Notes under the pieces: model-generated | Told to the model about the DNA's origin: nothing | The model's input: the letters and a program-made list of their open reading frames with translations, nothing else | Databases searched by the model: none | Program-made: the position numbers and the translations under genes | Assembly: GCA_905250025.1 (NCBI GenBank) | Contig: CAJNOJ010000053.1 | Coordinates: 248,001 to 312,000 of the forward strand | Direction: 5' to 3' | Length of the DNA stretch: 64,000 nucleotides | DNA from: Adineta ricciae | Taxonomy: Eukaryota > Rotifera > Eurotatoria > Adinetida > Adinetidae | Shown: positions 8,691 to 61,901 of the stretch, piece after piece | Layout: each line of letters starts with the position of its first letter | Numbering within the stretch: position 1 is the first letter of the stretch

Positions 8691-9031
8691 GAACAGCTGA
8701 ATGTATTTTACGCATCGATGACGCAGTTTTATACAAAAGTGAAAGTAGAAGGCGATACCAGTAGGACTAACGGTTGCTGTTGACTGTTCACAATTGATTC
8801 CATGAAGATTTGAGGCTAAATGATAAAACAGTACTGTGGTCAATACGCTCAACAAGAACGATATTCAGTGAATTAGAAGACACATGCAAAGATTAGAGAC
8901 GAACAAAAAGTCATGAATCAAGTAATGGACACTACAATAAGAATATAGTCACCTTGCTTGCACGACGTTCAAAGCCTTTTGCCTAGTATAAATAGAATAT
9001 TGATATTTTTGTAAAAGATTTCTTTAGCAAC
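8691..9031 (-). pseudogene. Broken duplicate of the 3' part of the KCC cotransporter gene
   Basis: Positions 8691-8745 match 12368-12422, and 8765-9031 match about 12535-12808 of the KCC gene at 12178-17328. The second stretch includes intron sequence and differs by about one base over the 220 positions I compared from 8812. About 110 bases present in KCC between the two stretches (around 12423-12534) are missing here. No start, membrane segments or complete exon set remain, so it cannot make a transporter. Intron sequence is kept, so it arose by DNA duplication, not retrocopying. The first stretch is visibly more diverged than the second. Confidence 0.85.
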
Positions 9032-12000
9032 CGACGAAGAACGGTCGTTGCAGCTTCTGGATCTGAATGGAAGCAGTGATCCGGACGGAAATGGGTTGAA
9101 CACGGATGTTGTTCATTCTCCGTCAGACCGTTTCCAAACGAACTATCAAAATAAGCGAGAGGACTTTGTCGGAGTTAAATCAGTCGAATTTTTTCGTCTG
9201 ATTTCAGGTTGTTTCATTATTTATTGCAACTATTTTTCTGCTGAACGACTGGATCTGTTTATGTCTTAGACGTCACACTACGAAATGCATTATCAATGGG
9301 GTTGTCTGTTTCAGAAACTGGGTTTATAGTTCTATAGAGCTGATCGAAGACTTCAACGTGCACTAGTTTGGTTTCCAGTTACGGCGAGTTAAGTGTTAAA
9401 AATCTCTTCTTGAATACGATGCACTACAAAACTCTAAAAATTTCACAATAAAATCCGTATTCTTTTTTTCAAAATCTTTTCACAGCGCTTCTAAATCTCT
9501 GAGGCACCCCCGACAGTTTCCCTGAGAGGCATGGAAATTTGAAATTCACATCTTTCGATTGTCACCGCTGTAGATTGTCCGTCCTATGAAATGGCGCATG
9601 TGGCTGTTAAAATATCCTTCTTTTCTTCAAGAAGACAATAAAGTACTTTGGTCAAAATTGGTGAACCATCCTAAAAATGGACGCTCTGCAAACCGGTGGA
9701 AACCCTATGTTTCACAGCTGCAGTAAAACAGTAGTTGCATGAATTTTTAGATCAACCTGATATTGACTGAAGATGGAAGCTATTGTACAACATGTCGTGA
9801 GTTGGGGTACTGTGTAGGGAAACAGAGATAGTACGTTATTGTGAACTGATGATATGGCAAGAATAGGACACAATGTTCAGAAAATTATAGATTATAAGTG
9901 AGATAACTCTTCTGAAAAATGCATGCTAGTGTGAAAAGATTCGAGTCGTCATTGGTGAACGGAATGCGTTCGTCATAGGTACAGTTGTGATATCGTAGTC
10001 GTCGCTTTGTGTTCCTATGTCTTACTTTGTGAATGTGAGTTGCTTAAATATTCTTCTGGGATATTTACTTCGTATACCGAAGAAAATGGTTCTTTTGCTT
10101 TGGTAGAGCTGTCTATACGTTTAGTTAACAGGTTATCACTGTCTTCTTTTGAGGAAATTCGTGATATCAAATATTATTAAAGTCATATGTAACACGGGCG
10201 ACAAGAGAATGAAAGTGTCAAGCTAACTTACTTGGTATCGTTCAGAAGTATTCAGAATCTGGTTGACCCATCGACAAATATTTTGCATGGAACAAAACAG
10301 CGTCAGTTAATCTTGATGACCCATAAACGAGTTCGACAGGTAACGTGGAAAACGTGTGCATCTTATTTTCCAACCGTGTAATAGACGGAAGGGATTATAA
10401 GTAATAAAAAAATGTTTGACTTCGTTTGTTATACGAAGTAAATCATCATGTCGATGTAGTTGTATATTCATAATTTATTGCCAAAAACAAATGATGTGTG
10501 AATAGTTTGACTAATAACGAATCGCTGGTGAGCGCAGGAGAATGGCATTAATACATATATGCCTAATGAATTCTACTCTATCATCTGCGATGATGAATTC
10601 ATGAATTGAAACACAAGAAGACTTTTTATGTTTTTTAAGTTCTTTCCAAAGCGATCCGATTTTCATCAAAAGGACTAAACATCTGTAAATTTATTATTTT
10701 GAAATAAAACATCTATGAAGATAAAATCCATGAATTGTAGAGCGAGACCACCAGTGATTCACATGGTCTCGAAAGGATTCAGTAGGCTTCCATACAACAC
10801 ACATAATATAACGACAATTATTAACTTTTCTCAAGCATAAATATCATATAAACGAAATTTTCTTAAAATTCTTCACTGCTTTGATTTTGGTAGAAAATCA
10901 CTGAAAAATTTTGCTTCATCATTCAGTATTACATGTTTAGTTGTCAGATAACACATGCGTTCATCTCAGAATACTTCTTTACAGGTTTATTGTTCGAATC
11001 TCATCGTCTTACTCGTAGACAAAAGAGTGCTATCACACCAGACATTACGTTAGTGTCCATAATTATATATAAAAGCGCGCTTTTCACTCGTTGCACCTCT
11101 TTCCTTGCCACACAATAACAAGAGTTTAGAATATATGAGGTAAGCGAAGAAACAATATCAGAATGGATCATTTCGTTTCTTGAATTAATGTCTTAGCAAC
11201 AACGAATGCTGATCCGTGTATACATTTCCTTGTAATATCAGATCAAGTCCAACTACAAGTAGTATACCCTCTGTTATCGATTTGAATGCTATTTGTACAC
11301 ATTTTTAAAGTGTAGTTTATCCTATTTTCATCATATTACCAATTAGACTCATATCAATTCATTGAAAAGTTATAAAAAGCATGTTAATTGACTCTTTAGT
11401 TCTCAAAAAAAGTAAAAGAACTTGAACATAACGAGAAATCGAACATAACTTTGCTTCTTCTCATGAAAGGCAGTTTCAATTTTCTTTCAGAAAAAAGATT
11501 AACGAATCTGTAGGATGAGCTCTACTTGTGAATTAATTTCAATCAAATAAAACAGTAATCAATGCATTTGTGTCTTAATTAACTTTACGTATACTACGTT
11601 GATGATATATTCCAAAAGACGTACAAAAATGCAATCATAAGCGAACTAAATTGAGATGAACACCGAAGTCAAAATCTTCATAGTTGAAAGGAACTACTCA
11701 AACTATTGTTTTGGACAACCTTTAACATTTTTTCACTAAGGTAAATAGTAATACTTGAAATAAGGTTTTCGTATCTATCTTTGATTTCAATCCTTTCGTC
11801 TCGTTGTTTTCAACCACAAACATTTCAATAATGTTTTTGAATTCTCGATACTTTCACGATCAATCGTGCTCAGATATTAAACCAAATAATTGCTTCTATT
11901 GCTTATTAATGATGTTTTATGGTCGATAGTTTCCTGTCAACTTTGAATTGATCGATTGACGTACATCGGAAAAGAGCACAGACATCGAATTTGTATTAAA

Positions 12001-12177: not shown

Positions 12178-15100
12178 TTAAGAAAATATTGTTATCACCT
12201 CACGTCCACTGCCACGCATTAAGATTAATCTATCAAGACCTTCGGTCAGTGCATCGACATACTCCATATAAGAATATGCAGCTAAACTTGAATGTTTCGC
12301 CGGTGGAGATGGAAGATTGATAAGAACAAGCTTCGCATCGCTTGAACGCTCTCGAATTTGTTGATTTAGACGAACAGCTGAATGCATTTTACGCATCGAC
12401 GAGGCAGTTCTACACAAGAGTACAAGTATAAAACGAGCACACGCGCATTGTCTTTCTTACATTGAATTTTTCAAGTTTTCGAGCTGATTCGGTGTGAATG
12501 TATATTGATACTGATCATTGGATTCTTCGGGAGCTGTCAGTCGTTGTTGACTATTCACAATTGATTCCATGAAGATTTGAGGCTAAATGATAAAACAGTA
12601 CTGTGGTCAATACGCTCAACAAGAACGATATTCAGTGAATTAGAAGACACATGCAAAGATTAGAGACGAACAAAAAGTCATGAATCAAGTGATGGACACT
12701 ACAATAAGAATATAGTCACCTTGCTTGCACGACGTTCAAAGCCTTTTGCCTAGTATAAATAGAATATTGATATTTTTGTAAAAGATTTCTTTAGCAAACA
12801 ACGAAGAACACTGAAAGGAGAATGACTTACTTGAAGTTGTAATTCTTTGTCAGGTAATTTCAAACCTTTTAGCAGTTTGACACGTTCCGCTAGTTTTAAG
12901 GTTCTTTCATAAGCATATGCAGATATTTCCTGATCTTCCTAGAAAACCAAACAGCCTTGAATGTTGAACAAACAAAACAATGATGGTCAAATCGAACCAT
13001 TTCTACAACGTTGACTTCTGCTTCGATACGTAATTGATACATATATTGTTCTAAATCTTTTTTCATTTCAACGGAATTGTCTTCGAGTTGTGCAACAGTA
13101 AACAAACGAATTCGACAACGTGCCCAGACTTTATTACGTTTCAGTAAGAATGCAATGAGAAATAGAAGGCCGCCATCATGAATGATCCACCAGATATCGA
13201 TAGTGCCCTCTTGAATCTGTTTGTGGTCGGGAAAATTGTCAATATTTTTTGGAACTATAACAGCACATTGACGTGCTTCGGCAATAGCAATTGTTCCTGA
13301 ATGAAAAGCAAGATGTAAATAGAGAACAAAAACCAGCTTCCTTAGATTTACGTATAAAAGCATCAGCTGTATAACTTTCAAAATCTTTTTTCCAATGTAT
13401 TGGCCAACATAGAACGATCGTATTAGGTCTTAAACCACCTAAGCCTTCTGTTTGTATTCTAAAATAGAAATGTTACACAATGTAGAAGTCACATCTTCAA
13501 TTTCGTGTACATACAATGCACTAATACCGTCCTCAGCGTCTTTCGCAGCCAGAACTTCCACAAAGCCTTGAACCTTTGCTTGAGCTAAGCTTGCTTTCAA
13601 TAACTAAACATGCATTAAAACAAACATTGCTAACGATTTATTCGACAGAATACTTACGGAACGAACCGGATCGATGTATTGGTGTTTGTCGAGATAATCA
13701 CCTTCCAGAATACTTGCAGCAACAACGAAACCTCGTCCTGGAAAAAATCGACACTTCATCTTCTTGAATTTTCCTTTGAAACTATATACCAGCTTTGAGT
13801 TGATATAGAAAATTGAGAACTTTTGGGTGACGAATGATATATGCTTCATCATCATCAGCTTTGTGAGCATTAATAAATGCTAATAATTGTGGTCGCCAAT
13901 TTTTTGTATGTGGTTGAGCTTCATCAACTCGAAATAAAGCGTAACGAGCTGCCGACATTGATAAACCACGAATTCCATCGCCCCATTCCTTTTCTGCTCT
14001 ATTTAAATTTAAAAACAAAACACAACATTGAGCCACTAAAACCAAATCAATTCCTTTCTACCCTTTGTATTCAATGAATTTATAGATGACTATAGCAATA
14101 AGCATTGCTACTAGAGCGAAATACCACGAAGCGATAAACATTATTGCGATACAAAGACAAACACCAGCGAATGACAAACTCCTAAAATGAAAGCATTGTT
14201 CACGAAAACAATCAATGGTCGTTTTCTTACCAGTGATAATAGCGAAAGCGTGGTCGCCAACTTGGCGCTTTCAGAACGGTTTGTAAGGCGCATGCTAAGT
14301 TGACAAATCCATAACATAATAAAAAGAACCTAGAAAACGTAACAAACGTTAATATCAACTTTTTTTCGAGCTGCGCAGCCACTTTACATCGATAAAAGTG
14401 CTGTTAACTTGTCGACATCAGCAATGAGAATTCCACATTCACAAATTAATAATGTCAGAAATAGAGCGGGTACTGGTTCACCACGGTAAGACTTGGCTAA
14501 TGGGCCAAGAATTGGTATTAGATCATCTCTAGCTACAGCTTGTAAAAGACGCGGTGCTCCTTGAAAAATTCAATCAATCCAATTAGATTTATTCTTCATC
14601 TTTCATTACCTGTTAAAGTCTGTAAGCCGGCTCCAACAGTCGAACAGAATGCACCGATCATAATCACCCACTTATTCGGCCAAGCCAGTACCGCGACAAC
14701 TAACTGTTTATTAATACTATCCCCAAATTTATCTCGTAATAATGTACTATGTGTACAAGCTGCCAAGAAGATTACGTTGGATAAATCTACAAGCATTCAA
14801 TATAACTTGTTGCAATCTTTTCAAATTGGTCTTATACATATGATTGATGTTGTTATAATGGCAGCAATTGTACCACGTGGAATACTCCGACTAGGATCAC
14901 GTAAATCTCCACTACGATTTGAGCCAGCCATAATACCTGTACGACAAATGATTTATGTCAATGATGCCATTGAACAATCTAGATCGTTTATTACCAGTTA
15001 CGGATGGAAAGTAAATTCCCACCAAAATTAGGAATGTCGTTACTTCTTGTGCCACAACTTCATAGGACGAATCACCTTTGATATCTCGTTCGATTTCACC

Positions 15101-20649: not shown

Positions 20650-23600
20650 ATGACTTCAGCGCTTGTTGGTATACGGCTAGGTGCGAGCAACATTGTTGTC
20701 GCATATTTCAAAGTAATATTTATTATATTGTTTTCTCTCATGTATTCGACGTGGAATTCATCTAGGATGGACGAAGTGAAACAATTGTCAATGAATTAGG
20801 TGATCGTGTAACTCCGACGTTTATTACATTCGGTGAAGGAAATGATATCGTATGAAATGAGATATCTGCGTTGTCAAATGTGAATTTTTCTTCTTTGTAG
20901 TCCATAGGGCTTCCGGCAAAACAAGGTTTTGTTCGTAACCAACAAAACACTATCGTTTGGTCACCGCATTTTCTACTGAAACACGACGGTGCTGATGCAT
21001 TCAACAAGTATTATAAACAAAGATCGCCGGTTGCTGTAAAGATTTTCCAGACCCTACTTAAACAGATGACACGATGTGTCTTTATTTAGATAATGGAAAA
21101 AGACGATCGGATAGAATTCTCTGTGATGATCGATGGCAAAGCGAAATCGATTCCTCTCGAAACTGTTCTAATCCATTTACTGACTTATGTTCGACGTAAG
21201 TCCAATGAAAAGGGACGCATATATCTATCTCATTGAAACACGATTCTTTTAGAACTTGTTCTATCTGTGACTGGTGCACGTGAAATTCAAGCTGTACTCT
21301 CAGTATCTTACAAAATGATCGAAACCGGTAAACAAGATCTAATTCGGTACGAAAGAAGTAGATTTCTCAGAAATTTCTATTGGCATCCTACCATTTATTG
21401 TAGAGCTTGTATGAAGAAAAGTGGCATTGAACTTCATTCCATTGTTCCGGATGCATGTTCAGCTTGTTTAGCTTATGAATTAGATAAAGATGGTGGCCAT
21501 GCTGAAAGGTTTGAATTTGAAATCCATTAAATACATTCAGAAGAAAAACAACCTTTTTCGATTTAGCAACGTATTGGTTTATCGACTCGGTGGTTCAACG
21601 TATGAGTGTTCAATTGTTCGAACAGTTGGCGGCTGCTTCAAAACGATTGCGACTGCCAATGGAGTTGAGAACAGTGGTGATGCTTTTACAGACTTAGTTA
21701 TAGATATTATAGCGGACGAATTTCAAAAGTAAACTTTCTTCTACCATTCTTTCAAAATTCTCTCTGATGATTTTAGAAAAACGAAGAATGATCCAAGGAC
21801 TGCACCGAGATCGTTATTGAAACTTCGTGCTTGTGCGGAACAAGCTAAGCATATCTTATCAACTACAGCTAGCACTCAATGTTCGATCGACGCGCTACAT
21901 GATGGTATCGATTTAGATTCCAATGTTAGCAGGTTGGATACAATGGATTTTTCTTATGTAATCATACATGTTTTCGATTAGACTTCGTTTTGAAGGTGCA
22001 GCAAATACTCTAATCAATGAATGTTTAAAATCTGTTGATAATATTCTTAACAAAGCACAATTGCAGGCAGATGATATCAAATTGGTATGATTAGACGTTG
22101 TTGTTGTTGTTGTCGTTGTCAAAAAATATCTCATTCGTTTAGATCGTACTGTGTGGTGGTGGTACCAAAGTACCTAAGCTACGTGATGCTATACAGAGTA
22201 AATTACCGAATGCTGATATGCTTTCATCAATCAATGGTGATGAAGTTATTGCGCTCGGTGCAGCCAGACAAGTAACGTTTCTCATTTGTAATATTTGAAT
22301 GAAATAATCGTCTGTTTAGTGTTATATTGAAAGCAAATATGCTAAAGTTCAACTATCGACAGTATGTATCGAATCCATGAGTTAAATTAACCGTCTGACT
22401 ACGGTGTGAATATCTTGTAGGATGCTCAGCAGTACGAACGTGTTGGTGTTCGTTATTTTCGTTCACATATGATCGCGACAGATGACGCAAAAGGTGAAAT
22501 CAGTGACAGTGATGCGGAGGATGACAATAACGATGATGAAAAAGAAAATGATCAGTTAGATCTCGATTGGGACAAACATGAATCCTATTTACGAAAACTC
22601 AATCTCACTGAATGGAAAGATCAAGATCATTACAAAGTCTTAGGTCTCGGAAAGTTACGTTACAAAGCAACACACAAACAAGTTCGTAACGCACATAAAC
22701 AAATGATTTTACGCTACCATCCGGACAAATCTAAGCGAATTGAAAGTGAACGATTCTCTCTGATCACTCATGCTTTTGAACTTCTATCAAATCCAGCACT
22801 ACGACGATCTTACGATAGTGTTGATCCAAAATTTGATGATGCGATACCAAATCCAACGACAGCGGATGGTTTCTATCAGACCTTTGGGCCTGTATTCGAG
22901 CGCAATGCACGTTGGTCCGTACATCAACATGTACCTTTGCTAGGAAATGACGAAACATCGTTTGAACAAGTGAACAAATTCTATCGATTCTGGTACGATT
23001 TCGAATCATGGCGTGAATATTCTTATTTAGGTGAGTCATTTCAAGAAGAACTCCTTTCCCACTTCTAGTTTTTCCTTTAACATAGACGAGGAAGATAAAT
23101 CTCAAGGTCAGGATCGTGATGAACGGCGTTACATTGAAAAAATGAATCGTGCAGAGAGACAAAAACGAAAGAAAACAGAAATGACACGCATCCGTAATTT
23201 GGTCGATCGTGCTTATGCACTCGATCCACGAATAAAACGTCAGAAGAAAGAAGAACAACAACGAAAAGACGATGAGAAGCAACGTCGCAAGCAAGAAATT
23301 GATAAACGACGACAAGACCAAAAGCAAAAAGAACTGGACGAAGCAAAACGTATTGCAGATGAAAAACAGCGAGTGGAAGAAGAAGCGAAACGAAAACAAG
23401 ACGAAGCTAAACGGGAAAAAGAAGCACAGAAGAAGTTAATGAAGTAATTTACATCTATCGTCGCTACAAAACTTTTTACTTTTTGAAAATCATTTGTAGA
23501 AAAGAAAAAAAACAACTGCGTGACTTGTGCAAAGAAGCGAATTATTTCAACGAATCAGGTTCACCGCCCAATTTAAAACAAGTCGAACAGATCGAAACTT

Positions 23601-24280
23601 TGGTTGAGTACTTACCGTACGACGATTTGAAAGCGTTGAACGAGAAATTACAAGAAGAAAATGCAGACAAACGTGCAATTGTTCTTGTCGAAGTTAAGAG
23701 AATGGATGAACAAATGCAACAATCCCGTCTAGAATTGTCTCAACCATCCTCATCATCCTCAACAGCGTCATCTTCAAACTCATCATCAGCGATCAAATGG
23801 ACGCCCGAGGAAATTGAAATTCTTGTCAAAGCGCTTCGTGTCTACCCCGCTGGTGTCCAAAATCGATGGTTAGTTGTTCAAGAGTATCTCAAACGTTGCG
23901 GCGGCAACCCCAGCCGTACTGTACAAGATATTATGCAAAAAGCTAAAGATATTGCCAGTGGAAAGAAAGAAGTCGAAGAAACAACAGCGTCGTTAGATCA
24001 CATTGCGTTGAATTCACATAAACAATCAACTATGCTGGAAAATCAAGTTAAATTAAGTCAGCTCACTGTCACTGAACGCGACCCGGACACGACAGTTGCA
24101 TGGACAGTCGATGAACAGCGCATTTTTGAACAAGCATTACGAACATACCCAGCAGCATTAGGATCCTCGCGATGGGATCAAATATCAGAATGTTTACCAA
24201 GTAGAACGAAAAAGGAATGCTTAGAACGCTACAAAGAATTAGCTAAAATGGTTCAAGCTAAGAAAGCAGTCAACAAATAA
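20650..24280 (+). CDS. HSPA14-DNAJC2: HSPA14 (Hsp70L1) - DNAJC2 (MPP11/Zuotin) fusion: single-chain ribosome-associated complex
   Basis: Fourteen exons give one frame of about 975 residues. Exons 1-10 (20650-20712, 20766-20849, 20901-21035, 21090-21195, 21253-21346, 21404-21508, 21567-21728, 21777-21932, 21982-22084, 22143-22271) encode a 379-residue Hsp70 nucleotide-binding domain of HSPA14 type: [61 protein letters not shown]. Exon 11 (22320-22361) is a 14-residue linker. Exons 12-14 (22421-23030, 23086-23443, 23500-24280) encode DNAJC2: VGVRYF segment, J domain with HPD at about 493-495, zuotin-homology segment, charged ribosome-binding helix, and two SANT/Myb domains ([26 protein letters not shown]). 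In yeast and mammals these are two proteins forming the RAC chaperone at the ribosome exit. The HSPA14 C-terminal substrate-binding part is absent. The last AATAAA overlaps the stop (24276-24281). The fusion is read from splice phases, not transcripts. Confidence 0.85.
22272..22420 (+). other. Junction of the HSPA14 and DNAJC2 halves (intron, 42-base exon, intron)
   Basis: Intron 22272-22319 (gtaacg...tttag), exon 22320-22361 and intron 22362-22420 (gtatgt...cttgtag). All junctions here are phase 0. There is no AATAAA between the halves and no in-frame ATG before residue MIATDD (22469); a TAG stop lies in frame directly before 22421. So DNAJC2 on its own would need a start that drops the conserved VGVRYF segment, or a separate trans-spliced message. 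Confidence 0.75.
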
Positions 24281-24887: not shown

Positions 24888-26739
24888 ATGGTAATTTTCC
24901 TTTTTGCCTGAAGTATTTTTATCGATTAAACTTCCTCTAGGCTTTAACTCGTCAATTACAAAAACAACAAGGAGGTGGTTCCAACAATGCCAATAACTGG
25001 TATGCCAATCAATACGCTCGTCGTGAAGAAGAAGCGCAACGAACGGTTCAACAGCGACAATTGAATCAAGCTCGAATCGATACCGAAATGCAAGAATTTG
25101 AAGCGAAAGCAGCAAACAAACGTTTGATACGCGAACAAGCACGTGCGGATCGTGATCGGGCTATGGAACAAGCAATTATCAAAGCACAGTGCGAAAAACA
25201 ACTCGCTACCGAAGCGCGAAGCCAAGAAGAACGATTAGCTGCGGAACTTGAACGAATCAAACATGAGAAAACACGCGATGAAAAAATGCGACAGCAAATT
25301 CGGTATGAAAAGATGATTTTTATTCTCTCCATATTCATAAATACTGATGATTTAGTGAGACGAGTTATGAATTACGAGATTTAGAATCCAAGCTACGTGC
25401 TGCGTATGTTCAAAAAGAACGTATTGGTCAAATGGCCGAAAAAGAAGCCCTGAAATTCGACTCCTATTTGGAAGATGCGGAAATTGCTCGTCGTATGCGT
25501 ACGGAAACTGACAAAGCTGAAGCAGATCGTCGTCAGCAAGAAATTGTTCGACAACAAGAAATGGTTCGCTATAAACAAGATCTTCAACGGCAACTCGAAG
25601 AACGCGAATTAGGCAAGCAACGAGCGTATGAAGAATTTCTTCGTGAAAAACTGGCCATTGATGAAATTGTTCGCAAGATCTATGAAGAAGATCAACGGTA
25701 GGTCGAAGTTGCTTTCCAGTCGTTGTCTTCGCATGGTTGTTTTTTTTTATCTTGCAGAGAAATGGAACGTAAATTCGAACGTCAACGTGCTACACGGGAA
25801 TTTATTACTGAATTCCAACGTAAACGTGAAGAATGGAAGATAATGGAACGTCAACGTATGGAAGAAGAGAATCGTCGTATAAGAGAATATGCTCGAACTC
25901 AAGAACAACGACAAGAAGTTGCCAAAGCTGAGAAACGTGCACGTGAAGAAGCTTTAGATAAAGTTCAGCGAGCACTAGCTGAACAAATCAAACGTGATCG
26001 CGAAGATCGCGAAGAACAAGAACTAGTTCGACAAGAATTATACTTAGAAGAACAGGAACAGGCCATACGAAAACGTGAACGTGAAGAAATGGAACTACGT
26101 ATAAAACAACGATTAGAACTACAACGTGAACGAGACGAACAACTGGAATTCAAACGTGTACGTGATATTGAAGTCAAACAAGAAGAAGAACGATTCCGAC
26201 AACAAGTAAAATTGAACAAGAATGATTAAGTTCTAATCGATCATTGATATTTTCTTAGTTAATGGCGAAATTTGCTGAAGATGACCGTATCGAACAAATG
26301 AATGGTCAGAAACGTCGTATGAAACAAATTGAACACAAACGAGCAGTCGATGCTCTTCTCGAAGAACGTCGGCGTCAAATGGCCGTTGATAAAGTTTGTA
26401 TTTTCGAAAGATTACTCTCAGAATCTATTCGTCATCTTCTCTAGCAACGTGAAGTCGATGAACGTGCTGAAGCCGAACGTATTTCTCAACTTCGTAAACA
26501 GATCATTGAAGAAGAACGTATTAAATTACTTCGTGAACATGCTCATCGTTTGTTGGGCTACTTACCAAAGGTAAAAACCTGCTTATTCCCTGTGTCAGTC
26601 TGATCGTTATTCTCTCTTCTATTTTCAGGGTGTCATTCGTGATGAGAAAGATCTCGATGACTTGGGTATTGACTTCAAGAATGAATTCAAACGACGACAT
26701 GCGAATATGCAAAATCCGAATGGATGGGACAATATGTGA
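24888..26739 (+). CDS. MNS1: MNS1-like axonemal coiled-coil protein (TPH domain)
   Basis: A predicted almost wholly alpha-helical, Arg/Glu-rich protein of about 490 residues. Helices carry strings such as RQQEIVRQQEMVRYKQDLQR and REREEMELRIKQRLELQRER, typical of the trichohyalin-plectin-homology (TPH) domain. The C-terminus has EERIKLLREHAHRLLGYLPK followed by GVIRDEKDLDDLG, closely like MNS1, a protein inside ciliary doublet microtubules needed for motile cilia and sperm tails. That role suits an animal with ciliated feeding organs. The first coding exon appears to be the ATG alone (24888-24890, then gtaatt), and exon 2 begins ALTRQLQKQQ. Six introns. AATAAA at 26774-26779. CFAP45 or trichoplein are less likely because of the C-terminal motif. 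Confidence 0.8.
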
Positions 26740-28885: not shown

Positions 28886-30348
28886 ATGACAAATTCAATT
28901 CAGCTGAATATTTCCAATGGAACAATACTGTTTGATCACAAATTACAACTTGTTGAACAGATTGTTCTAGGAAGTATGTTCGTATCGGCGTTAATCGGCA
29001 ATTTTATCGTCTTATTTATCATGTTAAATAAAAAACATCGACATATCACACGGATGGCATTCTTTATTCTACATTTAACTATTGCTGATCTTTTGGTAGC
29101 ATTTTTCAGCGTTCTACCAATGTTCATCTGGAAATCAACGACGACATTCCTTGGGGGCGATTTCCTGTGTCGAATTGTTTCGTTTCTTATGTTAACAGTT
29201 TCCTACATCTCAGTTTATACGTAAGTGATGTGTCTCAGTACTAACCAACCTACCTGATATGAAATGCTGTGCGAGCGTTGACAAAAAGGTTTCTTTTTTT
29301 CTCCGCAGACTTATTGCTATGGCTTATGATCGTTATCAAGCAATCGTTCATCCCTTGTCCAGTTATACATGGTCGAATCGATCCGGAACGATACACATGA
29401 TTGGCGTTTGGTGCTTAAGTCTGCTTATTGCATCGCCTCAAATATTCATATTTCGAATTGCTTATCATGAAGCGTATCAAACAGAAACATGTGTGGCTGG
29501 GTTTTCCACTTCCGATCGTACGTGGGAATTGATTTACATCGCGTGGACAATTCTTATGCAGTTTATTCTGCCCATTGGCATCTTAATATTTTGTTACAGT
29601 TCTATTTATATCATAGTGAACAGAAATCTTCTGATGTATTGTCCAAATGAAGCAGTAAAACATTCGTCGAATTTTTTGACTTTGCCTACAAAACAAATCA
29701 TCGGTGGCCGTATTCATATTCAATATCCTCTTCAGTGTCCAGATATGACACTGTTAAAAACAGTATCGAATCCAGATGTACGTAAAGGAGTGTATCCAGC
29801 AGTGCATTATTTCCGACGTGCATCGGTTACTGTGGTGACAATGTCGAGCACAAATAGTATTGATAGACAAACGTTTCAACAGCGTCATGGTGCTAATGAT
29901 TTTCTTTTACGGGCACGATTGAAAACAATTAAATTAACGTTTATTGTTGTTGTTACATATATACTCTGTTCAACGCCATTCTATATCGGATCGATTATAA
30001 TGACTTTACATGAGAAATTTATAACTCAGAAAACAATGAGTATAAGAAAGAAAAGGTTTTTTCAACTATTGACTTAGATGTGTGTTGTTTTTAGATTGGT
30101 TAATGACAATATTTAGCCTTTTATTCAATTTGAATAGTTGTTCAAATCCAATTATATGTCTCACACTGAGTAGATCTCTTCTTCGGTACGTACTAAGTAA
30201 TCTTGAAACAGAAATATTTGATTATTTTTGTACATTCATTTGCTACAGATGTGAAAAGAAATGTTCTCAACGAGCGGCATCACCCTCGAGATATCGCATA
30301 AATACTTACAATAAAAAAGGAAATTCGAACATTTTCATCCCACTGTAA
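28886..30348 (+). CDS. Class A (rhodopsin-like) GPCR, neuropeptide-receptor type
   Basis: Seven hydrophobic segments in three exons. The N-terminus has N-glycosylation sites (NISNGT). TM1 contains GNFIVLFIML, TM2 LTIADLLVAFFSVLPMF, and the TM3 start carries the conserved Cys (FLCRIVSF). TM3 ends in DRY (AMAYDRYQAIVHPL), TM4 contains W and P (IGVWCLSLLIASPQI), and EL2 has the partner Cys (ETCVAGF). ICL3 is long (about 100 residues), and TM6 and TM7 follow. The TM2-TM4 segments resemble the vasopressin/GnRH/CCAP receptor group, but the ligand cannot be named. Two motif changes stand out: CSTPF replaces CWxPF in TM6, and NPIIC replaces NPxxY in TM7. Introns after VYT and after KTM keep frame. 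AATAAA at 30400-30405. Confidence 0.85.
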
Positions 30349-31653: not shown

Positions 31654-32299
31654 TCATGCAGGTGGTCGTTTCGTTGCTGTCATGTTCATCATTGTTTTAC
31701 ATGTTGGACATGCGAGTTCAGTAACGCGATTTTCGCCATTGATCAGTAGTGCTGGTGGTGGATAGATACTCGTAGGAAAAGGATAACCAGGTAACGTGGA
31801 AGGGTAGTGAGGGAACTGTGTAGGATATGTGGGCATTGGCTGAGTGGGTAAAGCCGTGTTTAGAACAGCACCTGGTGTCATCAGTTGATTTTGTATTTGT
31901 GGATAAACGAGTTTGGGATATTTAGCCCGATGAACTCGTGCGCTGGTCACTATGTAGATTATCACATACGCGACACACAAGAGAAACATGAGCACACCAA
32001 CTGCTAACTGTGCTTTGATTAGTGGTATTTTGATATAGGTAAAATTATAATCAGAATAGAAGAGACCACGTGTCGATGCCGAACTGTTGCATACGCTCGA
32101 TGGAAAAAAGCATGTCGATGGAGAGACGATATAATATGCATCGAAGCCAATGACACACAGTGCGAAAACCATCGAGATCAGCTGACTTATCAATGTATAC
32201 GTTGCACATCCGCGTGCACGACAGCAACATGCTAAAACAATAGTAGCAGACAATCAGCATGAGCAATACTACAGTTAATCGTATCGTAATTACATGAAA
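31654..32299 (-). CDS. Four-transmembrane (tetraspan) membrane protein, copy a, 5' cut by N
   Basis: Contains the last two membrane segments (LISQLISMVFALCVIGFDAY; AQLAVGVLMFLLCVAYVIIY), with an extracellular loop between them carrying Cys (STCFFPSSVC) and glycosylation sites. A cytosolic tail follows, rich in Pro/Tyr/Gln (PMPTYPTQFPHYPSTLPGYP) and ending with CPTCKTMMNM. An intron of 41 bases (32272-32232) joins to a short 5' exon piece that stops at the N at 32300. The N-terminal half is seen only in the inverted copy at 43639-44195. The topology resembles MARVEL/CD20-like four-pass proteins; no family is claimed. Confidence 0.7.
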
Positions 32300-32300
32300 N
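32300..32300. other. Assembly ambiguity/gap (single N) between direct repeats
   Basis: The 200 or so bases on each side (about 32088-32286 and 32301-32499) are direct repeats of each other, so this is most likely an unmerged contig or allele join. Confidence 0.8.
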
Positions 32301-32514
32301 CCGAACTGTTGCATACGCTCGATGGAAAAAAGCATGTCGATGGAGAGACGATATAATATGCATCGAAGCCAATGACACACAGTGCGAAAACCATCGAGAT
32401 CAGCTGACTTATCAATGTATAGGTTGCACATCCGCGTGCACGACAGCAACATGCTAAAACAATAGTAGCAGACAATCAGCATGAGCAATACTACAGTTAA
32501 TCCTATCGTCTATA
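32301..32514 (-). repeat. Second, partial copy (b) of the tetraspan gene fragment
   Basis: Repeats about 32088-32286 with only a few substitutions (for example tatacg versus tatagg), covering part of the third membrane segment. Beyond about 32500 it departs from copies a and c. It cannot encode a complete protein. Confidence 0.8.
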
Positions 32515-43638: not shown

Positions 43639-44195
43639 ATGATTACGGACACTCCGGCTGCTATTCAACCACCGATAATAACACCAAGAGCACCACCAAT
43701 AGTACCATTATGGCGACAAAAATTTCCATCGATTGCTTCTGGAGCATTATCGTCTGTTCAGTTTTTGATCACGATCATCATCATTGGTTGTGAAGTGGGC
43801 AGTATGCTGATCGATATTGTGACTGCAACAGTATATGTTGGCCTTTGGGCGAGTTTATTCTTTTTGACTTCATGTGTTTCGCAATGGATTTCATGTAATT
43901 ACGATACGATTAACTGTAGTATTGCTCATGCTGATTGTCTGCTACTATTGTTTTAGCATGTTGCTGTCGTGCACGCGGATGTGCAACGTATACATTGATA
44001 AGTCAGCTGATCTCGATGGTTTTCGCACTGTGTGTCATTGGCTTCGATGCATATTATATCGTCTCTCCATCGACATGCTTTTTTCCATCGAGCGTATGCA
44101 ACAGTTCGGCATCGACACGTGGTCTCTTCTATTCTGATTATAATTTTACCTATATCAAAATACCACTAATCAAAGCACAGTTAGCAGTTGGTGTG
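43639..44195 (+). CDS. Four-transmembrane (tetraspan) membrane protein, copy c, 3' cut by N
   Basis: Starts MITDTPAAIQPPIITPRAPP. Membrane segments are LSSVQFLITIIIIGCEVGSM, VYVGLWASLFFLTSC, and, after a 41-base intron (gtagta...ttttag), LISQLISMVFALCVIGFDAY. The fourth begins at AQLAVGV, where the N at 44196 cuts it. Copy a (31654-32299, opposite strand) supplies the missing end and is nearly identical where they overlap. Function unknown. Confidence 0.7.
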
Positions 44196-44196: not shown

Positions 44197-44425
44197 GGGA
44201 ATGTATGGAGTTTTATAGTAGTTAGTCGATGAAGAATTGACGTCAAACGATGCCTTGAAATAGTGATGAGCGAATGATGTTATTAGAAAGATAGAATATG
44301 TATGCAGGGAGATAGATGAAAAATGTAATTATGCAAGAATGATATAGGTAAGATTGACGTCAAATGACGATATTTGTACGCAGTGAAAACGAAACTTCGA
44401 TCAAAATATATATAGATCGGTCATC
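44197..44425 (+). repeat. Inverted partner of 30588-30811
   Basis: Near-identical in reverse complement to 30588-30811. It runs into the start of duplicated block copy 1 (44278 on), so 44278-44425 has a third, direct copy at 57279-57425. Confidence 0.85.
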
Positions 44426-45099
44426 GTAGTCGGGAAACGTAATGTAAATCTCTCTTATGTATACGCTTAGACATGGATTAAAAGGATTAAACTGGAAAGA
44501 ATCGTACAAATGTTTGTAGATGAACAGGCGAACGTGTATCAGGACATCAAAGAATAATTGATTATAAGTTAGAATGTCACACAATCGAAAAAGGGTCTTA
44601 ACTTTCGTGAACATTCTGATTGTGCCAAATCTTTCAACAACACCGATTAAACGCTTTTTCTCCGAATTATCGAAATTCTTAGCATATTGTAAAGGCATAT
44701 CATGAACTCTGCAAAATGAAATTATAATCTGTATTTGATGTTGTACTTACACACCTGTACAAAGAACGTCAGTAGAATCTTTACTCATTTTGCCTGACAT
44801 CTATTGTACTCATCTGTGATAATTCTACTATAGCCAATAATATTCATTACTATCGTCAATTCACTCACATGCATTTGAAAAAATGAATGATAATGATTAT
44901 ACATGCATTCTGCTCCCTCAAACGTCGAAATGAAGACATTATCCATTTAGCGTTAAAAAAACTTCAAATTCGGTCAAATGATTCGATTCAATTTTGTCGA
45001 CGTATGCATATTTCGTTTTGATGTAGAAATATTTTTTTAAAATATCTTAACAGAAATTCACTATTTCGTTTTAATTTTTTAGAAAACTCTCAACTTCTA

Positions 45100-45873
45100 C
45101 TATCTCGGATTTCTCCGTCCTTTTCTTGAGTTGTAACGCAGAATAATTGGGTGGCTTGTCTCTGTATGTGGAGAAAAACCAAACGGCCCAACATTCATTC
45201 CATGGAAACGATACTTCAAGAAATCTTGTCCGTGATACACAGCAAGATCGGGATCATTATAAATGTCATTTGGGTCGAATCCATGTGCTTCCATTTGGAA
45301 CCAAGTTGATCCATCAGTTGCTGTCTTACCGAAAAGTAATTGATGATCTCGAAAATTGAGTCCATATTGCTGAACAGGAACCTGACGATAGTGTGATGAA
45401 AAACGTGGTAGAGCGTTGGGTAATTGCGACCATGTGTTATATAAATACCCATTATCAAGAATAATTACATGTGAACCTTGCCAGAGATCCACCTTGAAAG
45501 AAACAAATCATAAAAGAAATCAATTATTGTCTGCGAGGAAAGAAAAAGTTAAATGCACACTCACCAAACTAATACCAGTTTCGACCAGTAATCGTTGAAG
45601 AAATCTTCTCTGTTGTGACGGTAGATTTAGGTCTCGAACATTCTGTTCAATTTCTAGCGTACGTCGAGAAAATTCTTCACGTGTCGATGGGTACGGGTGG
45701 TCATCAAGAACCAATGACACAACACTATACAGACGTCGTAGAAATGGATCATTTAATGCAATTGTTGTTGGTAAATGAAAGAATCTGTCATTATTCGATG
45801 GGAATCTTCGTCGCGCTTTCGTCGGACTAGCTGACTTGTGCAGAAATTGCCTATGATGACGGTGGTGTATCAT
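45100..45873 (-). CDS. Unrecognised conserved protein, block copy 1
   Basis: Two exons (45873-45555 and 45492-45100; the intron begins gtgagt and ends caag) give about 235 residues. It starts MIHHRHHRQFLHKSASPTKA. The middle has LDDHPYPSTREEFSRRTLEI and VETGISLVDLWQGSHVIILD; the C-terminal half is rich in aromatic and Gly/Asp residues (HQLLFGKTATDGSTWFQMEA, GFDPNDIYNDPDLAVYHG, FHGMNVGPFGFSPHTE) with a basic end (KGRRNPR). No signal peptide, membrane helix or known motif was recognised. The copy at 58096-58855 keeps frame with mostly conservative or silent changes, which argues for a real protein. It diverges from the SLC15A gene 478 bases away. Confidence 0.75.
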
Positions 45874-46350
45874 TGTTTTGTAGTTCGGTTAGTGAAACGA
45901 ATGTTTTTTTTCTCGTTACCAAAACATTGAATACAACGATAAAAACTATCCATGCGAAGCATGAGTCGTGCAATTGTGTAGGACATTTGTTGTAGTAGGA
46001 GAGAAGCGGACAAGAATCGATTTTTTTCCTTGCGTAATTGTTGTTTTCTCATTCTTTGACGTGAATCACAATTGATTGAGTGTAGATTTTCGTTGACAAG
46101 TAAATGTGCGTGACATTTCAAGGATATATCTGATTTCTACAATAGTTTAGAATCCTGATAACATCAAGTGATAATTAATATCGAAATATCAACTGATTTT
46201 AGATAAAGTTTCAAATTTATTTTCATGTCGATTAATATGATTAAGGCTTCTTGTGTATGTTGGTGTTATTCGAGTTCAAGCTGTCAATAATAGATCAAAG
46301 TAAGACTTCGCGGTTAAGCGTGATCGTCATTTGGGTATGAGTGGTTTTAG

Positions 46351-48478
46351 ATGAGTGAAACAACTGTAGATGAAGCCACTCCATTAGTACTGACGTCGCA
46401 ACGAACGTTGCTAAGAAGTGATCAAAGAACTACATTTCAACGAAATCTCGCCGTTTATTTGATTCTATTCAGCGCAGGTTTCGAACGCTTGGCATTTTAT
46501 TCATTAGCAGGTAATTTGACATTCTTTCTCGACTCAAAATTAATCAGCTGGCGATTTCCACACACAATCATTGCTCCACTCATTTTTCTCGGTAAAGGAT
46601 GGCCGATACGACCGAAAAACGCTAATTAAATTATCCATTTTTCGTCAAAGGAACAAGTTACATTTCGGCCATAGTGTTTTCGTGGATTAGCGATGGAAGA
46701 TTGGGCAGAGCGAAAACAATTCTGATCGGTAATTGAAGATCTCTTCACAACTATTCAATTTACATTCATTTCAAATAGGATTTACCATCTATTGCATCGG
46801 GTATACATTCATGATTCTATTCGCCAATGAGCATATGCATCAAAATTGGTGTCCGCTACGAAATAGTACAACGGAAGCAACAGCACCAGATTTCTTTCAT
46901 GAACTTTGCATTCAATACATTCTTCCGACGTTGATTATAACGTAAAAACTTCTCTTTTCCTTTCATTTAAGGCAGAACATTGATCTTTATAGTGCCATCG
47001 GTGTTGGTGCAGTTCAGGCTAATATGGCTGTATTTGGTGCGGAACAAGTCAGAGAACAAAGAAGTAGAATGCGCTATTTTGATATCTACTATGCTGCAGT
47101 GAACACTGGTGGACTTCTCGCATTTGGCGCTATTGCATATTTACAAATCAATAAAGGTTACTTCGTCGGATACTTAATTCCTGGTGTTTTGCTCTTCTTA
47201 GCATTTATACTTTTCGTACTCGGTTGTAAATGTTACGTTCACATTAAACCACAAGATGCTGTCATTACAGCTTTTCTTCCGGTAGTTATCAATGCGTTTC
47301 AATCATGGCGAACTCGACGTAGAAGTCAGTCGGGAGCGATCAATCGAAATGAACTCCATCGTGAACAACCTATCGTAGAAACTGAAGCCGACAGTACAGA
47401 TTATTTATCGTTTACTGTCAGCAGACCCTCGTGGTCATTTCTGGATCACGCCAAAGTGGAAAATAATGGTCGATTTCCTGATCGAATCGTAAATGATATC
47501 AAATCATTGAGGCGTATTATGGTTGTTTTCTTATTGCTAACACCATACTGGCTACTTTATGTTCAAGTCGGATACAAACCTTTTTCTTTCGTTAATATGA
47601 AACATATATTTGTGTAGGTTGAAACAACATTCATTGTTCAAGGTGCACACATGAAACTACCCACATCGTTCAAACGAATGCCAGTTGTTTGGCTTTCGCT
47701 TGCTAATCAAATGATCATTATTGGTACGTAATCAATTCTGTTTACCTTCAGCTGACTGATATCTTGCTTCATTTAAGTTACTATCTTTGTTCTCAACACC
47801 TTCGTTTACAAACGTCTCCAAGCCAGTGGTCGATCATTTCCTATTAATACTCGTATTGTCATCGGAATGACATCCGCTGCACTCTCCATGTGCATGGCTG
47901 GTACAGTGGAAATCTTTCGTCAGAATATTTGCAAGACTCAAAACTTCACGCAGATCATCGGTACACACACTTGCATTCTAAAACCATATGAAATTTGTAC
48001 ATTTAGCTGACAAAGAATACGTTGCTGCAAATATGAGTGTCTTCTTTCAATTTCCTCAATATGTTGGTATTGGTCTTTCGGAAGTTTTTACATCTGTTGC
48101 CAGTCTCGAATTTGCGTACTTGGCTGCGCCACAATCAGCTCAATCGTTGATAATGAGTCTTCGATTTTGTTCTGCTGGTTTGTCATCATTTTTCGGGTCA
48201 GGCATAGTTGGCCTCATGTCAATCGAGGTGAGATTTGAAAGAATGTTTGGAAATGAATTATTCGCACTGATATTTTCTAGAATGGAAATCATACTACTGA
48301 GCATTATCGTAACAATGATCGCTACTACATATATTTCTTTATCTTGGCTGGTCTTCAAATAGTTTTTATCTTAATTTTTCTCGAATGCAATCGAAAATTT
48401 AAGATTTTGAAAGTGCCCAATCATCATCTGAGCGCCCGTCATTTTCTAACGTCGAATTCTGAACAAAGAACTTCTTGA
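46351..48478 (+). CDS. Proton-coupled oligopeptide transporter, SLC15A3/4-like, gene A copy 1
   Basis: POT/PTR family membrane transporter, probably lysosomal as for SLC15A3/4. Starts MSETTVDEATPLVLTSQ; EATPLV resembles an acidic dileucine sorting signal. TM1 is AVYLILFSAGFERLAFYSLA, then TSYISAIVFSWISDGRLGRA, FTIYCIGYTFMILFA, and AVQANMAVFGAEQVREQR, equivalent to the FGADQ signature of the family. Later helices include YFVGYLIPGVLLFLAFILFV, IMVVFLLLTPYWLLYVQ, NMSVFFQFPQYVGIGLSEVF and YYIYFFILAGLQIVFILIFL. Eight or so short introns. The first Glu of the POT motif ExxER is Ala here (AGFER). Stop at 48476-48478. Substrates (peptides or histidine) are inferred from family only. Confidence 0.88.
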
Positions 48479-48917
48479 TTTGTTTAATTCTGTGTTTTTG
48501 TATTAAATTATGGAAAGATTGTCTTTTCAAAACATGTCCGTGTGATAATTATTATTCATGTGTTTGGATAAAAAAGAAAAACGAACAAATTTTTCTTGCA
48601 CTTCAACAATCACCTTTGCATATCAAGGCTTATCTACAAAATCAGAACCGAAACAACTGATGTTTCTTATCTAAACGTCATCTCATCGGTAAACTATCAT
48701 GAACGTAGTGTATTTTACCCACTACCATTGCTTCCTTCTCGTCTATTCTTTTGAAAACAAAAACAACAAATGGTTTCATATCTTATCTATATCGAATTGA
48801 CAGCATCATAGACAATTATCGAGTTTTACTTACATCTGATATCATAAACAACGTGCAAGTGTGTTTCATTGTGTTTCTTATCCTGCATATAGTTATTCGT
48901 CATTTGTATTTATTTAG

Positions 48918-51102
48918 ATGACAGAGGCGAGCATTGATGAGGGTTCCCCACTCATTTTCCATACTTCGAGTATTCCGAGTACGCCAGATCATCGAACAGA
49001 TTTTCAACGCAAACTTTCTGTTTGGCTAATTCTAATCAGTGCTGGTTTAGAGCGCTTAGCCTTCTATTCGTTAGCAGGAAATCTTGTTCTGTTTCTTACA
49101 TCCGATGTTATCAACTGGACGCCGTTACACAGCGTCACTGCTTCATTCATATTTCTTGGTACGTCTTACATGGATATTTTCCTTAAAAATACCCTTTTCT
49201 CAACTTCCAGGTACAAGCTACATATCGGCTCTTATCTTTGCTTGGATCAGCGACGGGAAATTAGGTCGGGCGAAGACAATTATCATCGGTAACTCATTTT
49301 CCTGATTCTATTCAAATAGTTATAAGTTCGACACATAGGATTTCTATTGTACATCATTGGTTATGCATTCATTTCCTTATTTTCGGACAATGATCAATAT
49401 AAATTATATAGTACATTCTGTGGTAGAAGCAATCTGACGGTATTGGACACAGTTGGATTTTTTCAAGAACAGTGCATTGCTCAGATTCTCTCGACATTGA
49501 TTCTCACGTGTGTAAAGCGAATGACTTGTCTAGCCGAATTTTCTTTTTGATCTATAGAGCTATCGGTGTCGGTGCAGTTCAAGCAAATATGGCTGTGTTC
49601 GGTGCTGAACAAGTTCGAGAACAAAGAGCAACGACACAATACTTTGATAAATATTACGCTGCAGTGAATATCGGTGGATTGATTGCATTTGCGTTTATTG
49701 CCTATGGACAACAAAATGATAGTTATTTCATCGGGTATATCATTCCATCGGGCCTATTGATTATTGCGTTGATTTTGTTTCTGATCGGTTATCGATTTTG
49801 CATTCATATTGTACCACATGATTCTGTAATTAGTAATATCATTCCGGTACTGATCAACGCTTTTCAGACGTGGAGAAAACATCGACGAAATTCGCAGATC
49901 TTAACGAATAACCGAAGACAGAATAGTTCAACTGTGTTATTAGATGATCCTGTTGACTACAGTGATCAATTTTCGATAACGACAAGCGGACAAACATGGT
50001 CATTTCTAGATTATGCAAAAATATCGAACCAAGGAAAATTTATCGATCGAACCGTAGATGACATCAAATCGCTCCGACGTATCATTGTTGTTTTTCTTCT
50101 TCTCATACCCTATTGGCTTCTATATTTCCAAGTAAACTTAGTTTTAATATTGGAGAGAGAGAGAGAGTTCTATATCAGTGTTTCGTGATTTAGATTGAAA
50201 CAACATTTCTTGTCCAAGGTGTGCATATGAAAGTAATGAAATTCTTTCGCACGGATCAAGGCGATCATTATATGCCTGTCATTTGGCTATCACTTGGTGA
50301 TCAAATCATCATTATTGGTAAATATAATCACATTATTCAGAACAAATGTGTCATAGAATTGTTTCTCATTTAGTTGCAATCTTTTTTCTGAACACTTTCG
50401 TTTACAAACGTCTTCGAGCAAGTGGACGTTCGATTTCAATACGTTTTCGAATTACTATCGGTATGATGTCAGCTGCGCTTGCAATGTGTATGGCAGGCAC
50501 TGTGGAGATATTTCGTCAAAAACTTTGCGATTCTCCACCAACTATCGAACAAATTATTGGTAAACGACATATACTTCTATCGCTCTTTTAATTTTGAATA
50601 TGATTTTCTAGGAAAAACGAATTATACTGCTGCTGACATGTCGATATTTTATCAATTTCCACAGTACATCGGAATTGGTCTGTCAGAAGTATTCGCTTCA
50701 GTGGCCAGCTTAGAATTCGCGTATTTAGCCGCGCCACGTTCTGCTCAATCGTTAATTATGAGTCTTCGATTTTGTTCTGCTGGTCTGTCATCGTTCTTCG
50801 GCTCGTTCTATATTGGTATATTCGTCAAAATAAAACAAGATCTTGCCTTTGAAAACTCTTCCGTAAGCAAAATCTCTTGTTTTTTTTCTTGATGATAAGC
50901 TTTATTTTATCTTCAGTGCAAAGCTGCAGATGAGCCCGAGTTATTCTTTGTTTATTTCTTTGTATTGGCTGCTTTTCAAGTATTCTTCATACTGGTATTT
51001 CTCGCCTGTGATCGAAAATTTCACATACTGAAAGTTTCCAAACAACGATTCAACACCAGATTATTTGTTGCACCGACATCTCGATCATCTACTCGCTGTT
51101 GA
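48918..51102 (+). CDS. Proton-coupled oligopeptide transporter, SLC15A3/4-like, gene B copy 1
   Basis: Tandem paralogue of gene A, clearly more diverged from it than the two block copies are from each other. Starts MTEASIDEGSPLIFHTSS with EGSPLI as acidic dileucine-like signal. TM1 is VWLILISAGLERLAFYSLAG (again Ala for the first Glu of ExxER). AVQANMAVFGAEQVREQRAT, FIGYIIPSGLLIIALILFLI, IIVVFLLLIPYWLLYFQ, SIFYQFPQYIGIGLSEVFAS and YFFVLAAFQVFFILVFLACD follow. Exon borders match gene A. AATAAA at 51163-51168 lies within the 101 bases that separate its stop from the convergent gene at 51204. Confidence 0.88.
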
Positions 51103-57278: not shown

Positions 57279-58095
57279 TGTTATTAGAAAGATAGAATAT
57301 GTACGCAGAGAGATAGATGAAAAAAATGTAATTATGCAAGAATGATATAGGTAAGATTGACGTCAAATGACGATATTTGTACGCAGTGAAAACGAAATTA
57401 CGAACATAATATACATCGGTCATCGTAATCGGGAAATGTAAATTTCAATCTTTCTTATGTGTACGCTCAGACATGGATTAAAGGATTGAATTGGAAAGAA
57501 TCGTAAAAATGTTTGTAGATGAACTGGCGTACGTGTATGAGGACATCAAATAATAACTGATTATAGCTTAGAATGTCACACAATCGAAAAGGAGTCTTGC
57601 TCGTGAACATTCTAATTCTGCCAAACCTTCCAACAACATCGGTTAAAGGTTTTTTTCTCCGAATTATCGAAATTCTTATCATATTGTAACGATATGTGAT
57701 GAATTCTGCAAAATGAAATTATAATCTGTATTTAATCTTGTACTTGCACACCTGTACAGAGAACGTCAGTAGAATCTCTACTCATTTTGCCTGACATCTA
57801 TTGTACTCATCTGTGATAATTCTACTATAGCCAATAATATTCATTACTATCGTCAATTCACTCACATGCATTTGAAAAAATGAATGATAATGATTAGACA
57901 TACATTCCGTCCCCTCAAACATCGAATTAAGATATTGTTCGTTTACTGTAAAAAAAACTTCAAATTCAGTCAAATGATTCGATTCAATTTTGTCGACGTA
58001 TGTATATTTCGTTTTGATATATAAATATTTTTCTCAAAAATATCTTAACAGAAATTCACTATTTCGTTTTAATTTTAGAAAACTCTCAACTTCTA

Positions 58096-58855
58096 CTATC
58101 TTCGATTTCTTCGTCCTTTTCTTGAGTCGTAACGCAGAATAATTGGACGAGTTGTCTCTGTATGTGGAGAAAAACCAAACGGTCCAACATTCATTCCATG
58201 GAAACGATATTTCAAGAAATCTTGTCCGTGATAGACAGCAAGATCGGGATCATTATAAATGTCATTTGGATCAAATCCATGTGCTTCCATTTGAAACCAA
58301 GTTGATCCATCAGTTGCTGTCTTACCGAAAAGTAATTGATGATCTCGAAAATTAAGTCCATATTGTTGAACAGGAACCTGACGATAATGTGACGAAAAAC
58401 GTGGTAGAGCAGTGGGTAATTGTGACCATGTGTTATATAAATACCCATTATCAAGAATAATTACATGTGAACCTTGCCAGAGATCCACCTTGAAAGAAAG
58501 AAATCAATTATTGTCTGCAAGAAAGAAATGTTAAATGTACACTCACCAAACTAATACCAGTTTCGACCTGTAATCGTTGAAGAAATTTTCTCTGTTGTGA
58601 CGGTAGATGTAGATCTCGAACATTCTGTTCAATTTCGAGCGTACGTCGAGAAAATTCTTCACGTGTCGATGGGTACGGATGGTCATCAAGAACCAATGAC
58701 ACGACACTATACAAACGTCGTAGAAATGGATCATTTAATGCAATTGTTGTTGGTAAATGAAAAAATCTATCATTATTCGATGGGAATCGTTGTCGCGATT
58801 TCGTTGGACTAGCTGATTTGTGAAGCAATTGCCTATGATGACGGTGGTGCATCAT
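58096..58855 (-). CDS. Unrecognised conserved protein, block copy 2
   Basis: Same two-exon structure and product as the gene at 45100-45873, starting MMHHRHHRQLLHKSASPTKS. Coding differences are few and mostly conservative (for example R to K or Q, N to T, S to T), and the frame is kept, which suggests both copies are under constraint. Diverges from the SLC15A gene at 59335. Function unknown. Confidence 0.75.
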
Positions 58856-59334
58856 TGTTTTGAAGTTCGGTTAGTGAAACGAATGTTTGTTCTCGTCACC
58901 AAAACATTGAATGCAACGACGAAAACTAACCATGCGAAGCATGAGTCGTGCAATTGTGTAGGACATTCGCTGTAGTAGGAGAGAAGCGGACAAGAATCGA
59001 TTTTTTTTTTCTTTGCATAATTATTGTTTTCTCATTCTTTGACGTGAATCACAATTGATTGAGTGTAGATTTTCGTTGACAAGTAAATGTGCGTGACATT
59101 TCAAGGATATCTCTGATTTCGACAATAGTTTAGAACCCCTGATAACATCAAGTGATAATTAATATCGAAATATCAACTGATTTTAGATAAAATTTCAAAT
59201 TTGTTTTCATGTCGATTAATATGATTAAGGTTTCTTGTGTATGCTGGTGTTATTCGAGTTCAAGCTGTCAATAATAGATCAAAGTAAAGCTTTGCGGTTA
59301 AACTTGATCATCATTTAGGGTGAGGCGGTTTTAG

Positions 59335-61463: not shown

Positions 61464-61901
61464 TTTGTTTCATTCTGTGTTTTTGTGTGAAATTATGGAA
61501 AGATTGTCTTTTCAAAACATGTCCGTGTGATAATTATTATTCATGTGTTTGTATAAAAGAAAAACGAACAAATTTTTCTTGCAATTCCACAATCTTCTTT
61601 GCTTATCAAGCCTTGTGTACAAAATCAGAGCTGAAATAGCTGATTTTTCTTATCTAAACATTCATCTCATTGGTAAACTACCATGAACGTAGTGTATTCG
61701 ACTCACTACCGTTTCTTTCTTCTCGTTTATTCTTATGAAAATAAAAACAACAAATGGTTTCATATCTTATCTATATCGAATTGACAGCATCATAGACAAT
61801 TATCGAGTTTTACTTACATCTGATATCATAAACAACGTGCAAGTGTGTTTCATTGTGTTTCTTATTCTGCACACAGTTATTCGTCATTTGTATTTATTTA
61901 G

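Follow-up and report, generated by a model that had tools for sequence, protein, structure and literature searches.

A stretch of 64 000 nucleotides from the bdelloid rotifer Adineta ricciae (GenBank assembly GCA_905250025.1, contig CAJNOJ010000053.1; hereafter the window) carries on its forward strand a predicted gene in which HSPA14 and DNAJC2 are joined in one reading frame. The same two families form the ribosome-associated complex (RAC) of yeast (Ssz1–Zuo1) and mammals (HSPA14/HSP70L1–DNAJC2/MPP11), where they are two polypeptides; the gene models for the fusion predict a single one. Judging from sequence, it is highly probable that one gene specifies one protein of about 111 kDa, a single-chain RAC, and the most likely form of that protein is a single-chain RAC without a substrate cleft. 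The initial annotation of this DNA had recorded the in-frame join and interpreted it as a fusion of RAC subunits that had lost the substrate-binding part of HSPA14. The join is confirmed in the predicted gene and the interpretation is supported by the comparisons described here, which go beyond it in indicating that the loss affects both sides, as the outer N-terminus of DNAJC2 also appears to have gone. The features of the gene are as follows.

20650..24280, plus strand: HSPA14–DNAJC2 fusion gene, coding span; 14 exons, 975 amino acids (gene model, full-length homologues)
20650..22271, plus strand: exons 1–10, HSPA14/Ssz1-type Hsp70 nucleotide-binding domain, residues 1–379 (Pfam PF00012 at 6–387, tree, replaced catalytic residues)
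22272..22319, plus strand: intron 10, 48 nt (gene model; in-frame stop at 22296 if retained)
22320..22361, plus strand: exon 11, 14 residues that complete the final helix of the HSPA14 ATPase domain and add a short linker (alignment to intact HSPA14, A. steineri model)
22362..22420, plus strand: intron 11, 59 nt (gene model)
22421..24280, plus strand: exons 12–14, DNAJC2/Zuotin from just before the EPVG-like motif, residues 394–975 (gene model, Pfam, alignment, tree)
22469..22471, plus strand: the only ATG in frame from the junction up to the J domain (missing from the seven named relatives)

The gene model built from the DNA bore out the 14 exons in a single frame that had been proposed, together with the positions of the 14-residue exon and of exon 12. 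All 13 introns are GT-AG and 48–59 nt long, and the two that flank the join are similar in size to the other 11; introns of about 60 nt are described for several bdelloid species in the excerpted text of PMC1925144. The coding sequence of 2928 nt starts with the ATG at 20650 and ends with TAA at 24278–24280, giving a protein of 975 amino acids with a calculated mass of 111.5 kDa, while the halves as separate proteins would be about 43 and 69 kDa. Pfam assigned, from N- to C-terminus, HSP70 (residues 6–387, 3.5e-66), DnaJ (462–525, 4.6e-13), the ZUO1-like zuotin homology domain (544–647, 8.3e-43), RAC_head (705–792, 7.2e-15) and Myb/SANT (916–962, 1.6e-15), with the HPDK of the J domain at residue 493. 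The Hsp70L1-type ATPase domain of 379 residues encoded by exons 1–10 thus stands, by Pfam and by its place in the HSPA14 tree. The DNAJC2 half had been called complete, with two SANT domains: its J, zuotin-homology, head and C-terminal SANT regions are all present, but its N-terminus is truncated (see below), and the first SANT, which we presume to lie at about 818–885, is a conserved stretch in the alignment of the fusions with no Pfam stretch at 1e-3.

DNAJC2/ZRF1 has a nuclear, chromatin-associated role through its SANT domains. The C-terminal SANT/Myb domain and the conserved stretch that is presumably the first SANT could accordingly be taken to mean that the fusion is mainly a nuclear DNAJC2, with the Hsp70 half as an accessory. 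The fusion retains its zuotin-homology and RAC_head regions, however, which in RAC are within the ribosome-bound part, and Myb domains are common in the Pfam annotation of other animal DNAJC2 rows. We regard this as the least probable of the explanations considered here, and a ribosome-associated single chain as the better account.

A search with the whole fusion against 5.8 billion proteins matched 144, the best 120 of which were examined. HSP70 and DnaJ domains occurred together in seven relatives, with query coverage of 99–100% and identity of 66–84%. These are predicted proteins from public records, all co-linear with the fusion and all from bdelloids: Adineta vaga, A. steineri, Rotaria sp. 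Silwood1, Rotaria sp. Silwood2, R. sordida, R. magnacalcarata and Didymodactylos carnosus. The initial annotation had proposed looking for the same arrangement in other bdelloids, and it is predicted in these seven further species, which together with the conserved junction rules out a gene-prediction artefact limited to one genome. The DNAJC2 half alone matched 813 proteins; among the best 120, all six named bdelloids were fusions (the Didymodactylos record lay beyond the length limits) and three bdelloid-like partial proteins were present (P0121–P0123), with apparent read-through into introns in two of them. The Hsp70 half gave 20 matches, made up of one partial Rotaria record, 16 HSPA14 proteins of 472–529 residues (five of them annotated as heat shock 70 kDa protein 14) and three other Hsp70s. 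No fusion outside bdelloids was found among the matches listed for the whole fusion and the DNAJC2 half (the best 120 in each case), and no Brachionus-named row in these or among the 20 Hsp70-half matches. The DNAJC2 tree places the window together with the two Adineta rows (96/95) and has Didymodactylos as the deepest bdelloid branch; DNAJC2 rows P0124 and P0008 adjoin the bdelloids under midpoint rooting, and the full-length HSPA14 rows P0215–P0220 join the bdelloid rows in the Hsp70 tree (99/97, with a long-branch warning). If these rows are monogonont, the HSPA14 and DNAJC2 genes would still be separate in monogononts. The initial annotation knew of no description of such a fusion, and we found no published account of one in the titles and abstract starts of the Creative Commons-licensed PubMed Central papers listed for this fusion or for its genes in rotifers; PMC4736243 matched through DNAJC27, which has no bearing here.

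The Hsp70 half belongs to the HSPA14/Ssz1 class. Seven bdelloid rows and 16 HSPA14 rows stand apart in the tree (100/100, long branches flagged) from the three other Hsp70s, which are one BiP-like by sequence, one from a Polyangia bacterium and one close relative of the Polyangia row. D10, K71, E175 and D199, which we take to be catalytic residues of the ATPase, are replaced in all seven bdelloid rows tested (P0004 left out). Among the HSPA14 rows, D199 is replaced in 16/16 and D10 in 15/16 (one row is gapped), while K71 is kept in 14/16. By the tree and by the replaced residues common to HSPA14, the assignment of this half to HSPA14/Ssz1 holds, and a canonical Hsp70 is ruled out on the same grounds. 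The best 50 rows of a structure comparison were all generic Hsp70 ATPase domains, with no RAC entry among them. The HSPA14 part of the fusion stops just after the ATPase domain, whereas all 14 aligned HSPA14 rows continue for 103–153 more residues; the rudimentary substrate-binding β-domain of the class is missing, and the claim that the C-terminal substrate-binding part had been dropped is therefore upheld. The structure of the gene, its conservation, the missing parts and the replaced catalytic residues are all established at the sequence level.

Such losses might also be expected if the fusion were real and its Hsp70 half a functionless, decaying passenger. The four catalytic residues compared are all replaced, K71 despite its retention in most HSPA14 rows, the substrate-binding part has gone, and across the eight fusions the ATPase half is less conserved (69–83%) than the J and zuotin-homology domains (77–94%). 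Even so, we consider a passenger very unlikely and prefer an Hsp70 half that serves the single-chain complex.

The join itself is strongly conserved. The sequence ALGAARQCYI at the junction is invariant in 8/8 fusions, and a peptide spanning the junction would cover ALGAARQCYIENK. Exon 11 had been described as a 14-residue exon between the halves; the length is right, but it is not a foreign linker, as its first nine or so residues continue the last helix of the ATPase domain when aligned with intact HSPA14. In the predicted structure of the A. steineri protein a single helix spans residues 378–394 and is followed by disorder. The A. vaga protein lacks five junction residues (VQLST). Exon 11 has two possible in-frame GT donors, one at 22347 and another 15 nt further on at 22362; the first coincides exactly with the A. 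vaga gap, and use of this earlier donor would explain that species' shorter linker. Exon 12 begins four residues ahead of a motif that reads EPVG-(R/K)WF in most DNAJC2 proteins and YERVGVRYF in the window. The distance from GAARQ to this motif is 18 residues in the window and in five of the seven relatives, but is shorter in A. vaga (13) and longer in Didymodactylos (32). In 20 other DNAJC2 rows, the EPVG-type motif starts at residues 21–30 in 16 and at residues 3 and 6 in two, with no motif found in the remaining two. The DNAJC2 part of the fusion thus lacks the approximately 20–29 residues that precede the motif in most other DNAJC2 rows, the region in which fungal Zuo1 carries the LP-motif that fills the Ssz1 cleft. 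None of the eight fusions has an LP in the stretch from the junction to the J domain; a literal LP is present in the first 14 residues of only 8/20 other DNAJC2 rows, making it a weak marker outside fungi.

Several observations weigh against a single chain, and most of them would suit two adjacent genes in a trans-spliced operon: an HSPA14 cut short in intron 10, followed by a DNAJC2 given a spliced-leader start at 22421, the two being joined by gene predictors only. According to the excerpted text of PMC1925144, bdelloids add a spliced leader to over half of their transcripts. Retention of intron 10 would bring an in-frame stop at 22296, 125 nt upstream of exon 12, which qualifies the original claim of no stop between the halves. 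The partial Rotaria sp. Silwood1 record, of 401 residues, agrees at every position with the N-terminal part of the Silwood1 fusion and stops exactly where exon 11 does. An in-frame Met ahead of the J domain is encoded in the window at 22469, and fragment P0123 apparently starts with Met at what seems to be the same site. The Didymodactylos record (P0007) has 667 additional N-terminal residues with no match in the window, and its extra Pfam domains, presumably BRCT-type, must sit in this addition; we treated it as a merged neighbour or lineage-specific event, not as a sign that the fusion has a third, BRCT part, but the record suggests that neighbouring genes may have been merged in these bdelloid annotations. 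Finally, the relative placement of the two halves in the structural model is unreliable (pTM 0.47).

Against an operon, all eight fusions preserve exon 11 in frame and at the protein level (50–93% identity to the window's version), and introns 10 and 11 are of ordinary size. The poly(A) signal variants AATAAA, ATTAAA, AGTAAA and TATAAA are all absent from 22272–22468, in agreement with the earlier statement that no such signal separates the halves. That statement also held that there was no usable start between them, which needs qualification: the window's ATG at 22469 exists, but it is preceded in exon 12 by an out-of-frame ATG at 22422, and the seven named relatives all lack a Met in the stretch from the junction to the J domain. 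The DNAJC2 half of the A. vaga protein has its first Met only after the J domain, inside the zuotin-homology region. In the named relatives, therefore, no separate DNAJC2 protein would be made from this gene as predicted. Taken together, we think a trans-spliced operon very unlikely and retain one gene with one product.

Compared with RAC, the predicted protein contains the same two families at 1:1 and keeps the J, zuotin-homology, head and SANT regions along with an HSPA14-class Hsp70 half bearing replaced catalytic residues; it differs in having neither the substrate-binding part of HSPA14 nor the outer N-terminus of DNAJC2, and in the replacement of K71. It resembles HSPA14/Ssz1 in ATPase-domain sequence, tree placement and the replacement of D10 and D199, but its Hsp70 part ends where that of HSPA14 runs on. 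The likeness to DNAJC2/Zuotin/MPP11 extends from the EPVG-like motif through the C-terminal SANT, the difference being the shortened N-terminus and, in the named relatives, the missing start codon.

Fungal RAC offers a guide to what these changes might mean. In the Chaetomium complex, as described in the excerpted text of PMC10191838, the Zuo1 N-terminus (Zuo1N, residues 1–72) accounts for 80% of the Ssz1 interface and contacts mainly the Ssz1 substrate-binding part and linker, while the Ssz1 ATPase domain masks the J-domain HPD and is proposed to shift away once the chain and Ssb arrive. In yeast, Ssb(ATP) docks onto the Ssz1 ATPase domain (excerpts of PMC8476630). The Ssz1 cleft is filled by the Zuo1 LP-motif and touches nascent chains, yet a Zuo1 truncated by 16 residues at its N-terminus retains Ssz1 binding and complements the deletion of zuo1; mammalian RAC rescues yeast in which both zuo1 and ssz1 are missing (excerpts of PMC7083937). 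The bdelloid fusion retains the parts for capping, docking and anchoring, but its clamp has been cut back on the Ssz1 side, through loss of the substrate-binding part of HSPA14, and on the outer Zuo1 side, through loss of the first residues of DNAJC2.

On this basis we infer a one-chain product that binds the ribosome, caps its own J domain and works with a partner Hsp70. The zuotin-homology and head domains of DNAJC2 would anchor the chain at the ribosome, and the tethered ATPase domain would cap the J-domain HPD, like fungal Ssz1, and provide a docking surface for canonical cytosolic Hsp70, as the fungal Ssz1 ATPase domain does. A nascent chain or the canonical Hsp70 would displace the cap, after which the J domain would stimulate the Hsp70. 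A peptide bond would replace the subunit interface and fix the 1:1 stoichiometry, as the initial annotation proposed, but only if the predicted protein is made. The step that would be impossible in the fusion is nascent-chain binding to the Ssz1 substrate cleft; the peptide-binding domain is reportedly not required for Ssz1 function, to go by the title alone of a 2002 study by Hundley. On balance we lean towards a minimal RAC, in which the atypical Hsp70 has lost catalysis, and perhaps nucleotide as well, and serves as a cap and docking module tied covalently to its J partner; with cleft and plug gone, the proposed relay of nascent chains from Ssz1 to Hsp70 would be dispensable in a whole animal lineage.

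Elsewhere in the window, the same-strand downstream neighbours of the fusion are a trichohyalin-plectin-homology open reading frame (ORF) at 25723–26229 and two adjacent ORFs at 28886–30077 that seem to make up one rhodopsin-type receptor. A 6.7-kb duplication (44278–51020 and 57279–64000, 93.5% identity, same orientation) has its second copy reaching the window end. Each copy holds two PTR2 (POT-family peptide transporter) ORFs that are about 66% alike, and the PTR2 family may, given this arrangement, have grown in two steps. Near-identical short repeats (209–310 bp, 98.5–99.7%) occur at 31993–32509, 43886–44195, 8778–9042 and 12545–12809, including a tandem copy (32079–32509) and an inverted copy (43886–44195), and are possibly small mobile elements. 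Rfam gave no match in the 64-kb window at gathering scores.

The excerpted text of PMC7083937 describes as long-standing the question of whether Ssz1/HSPA14 is confined to supporting Zuo1 or also deals with nascent chains in its own right. A lineage in which the RAC subunits are welded together and the cleft is lost would be a natural experiment on that role. The fusion would also provide a RAC of fixed stoichiometry for structural work, and it suggests a route from a stable chaperone heterodimer to a single protein whose non-covalent interface has been trimmed from both sides.
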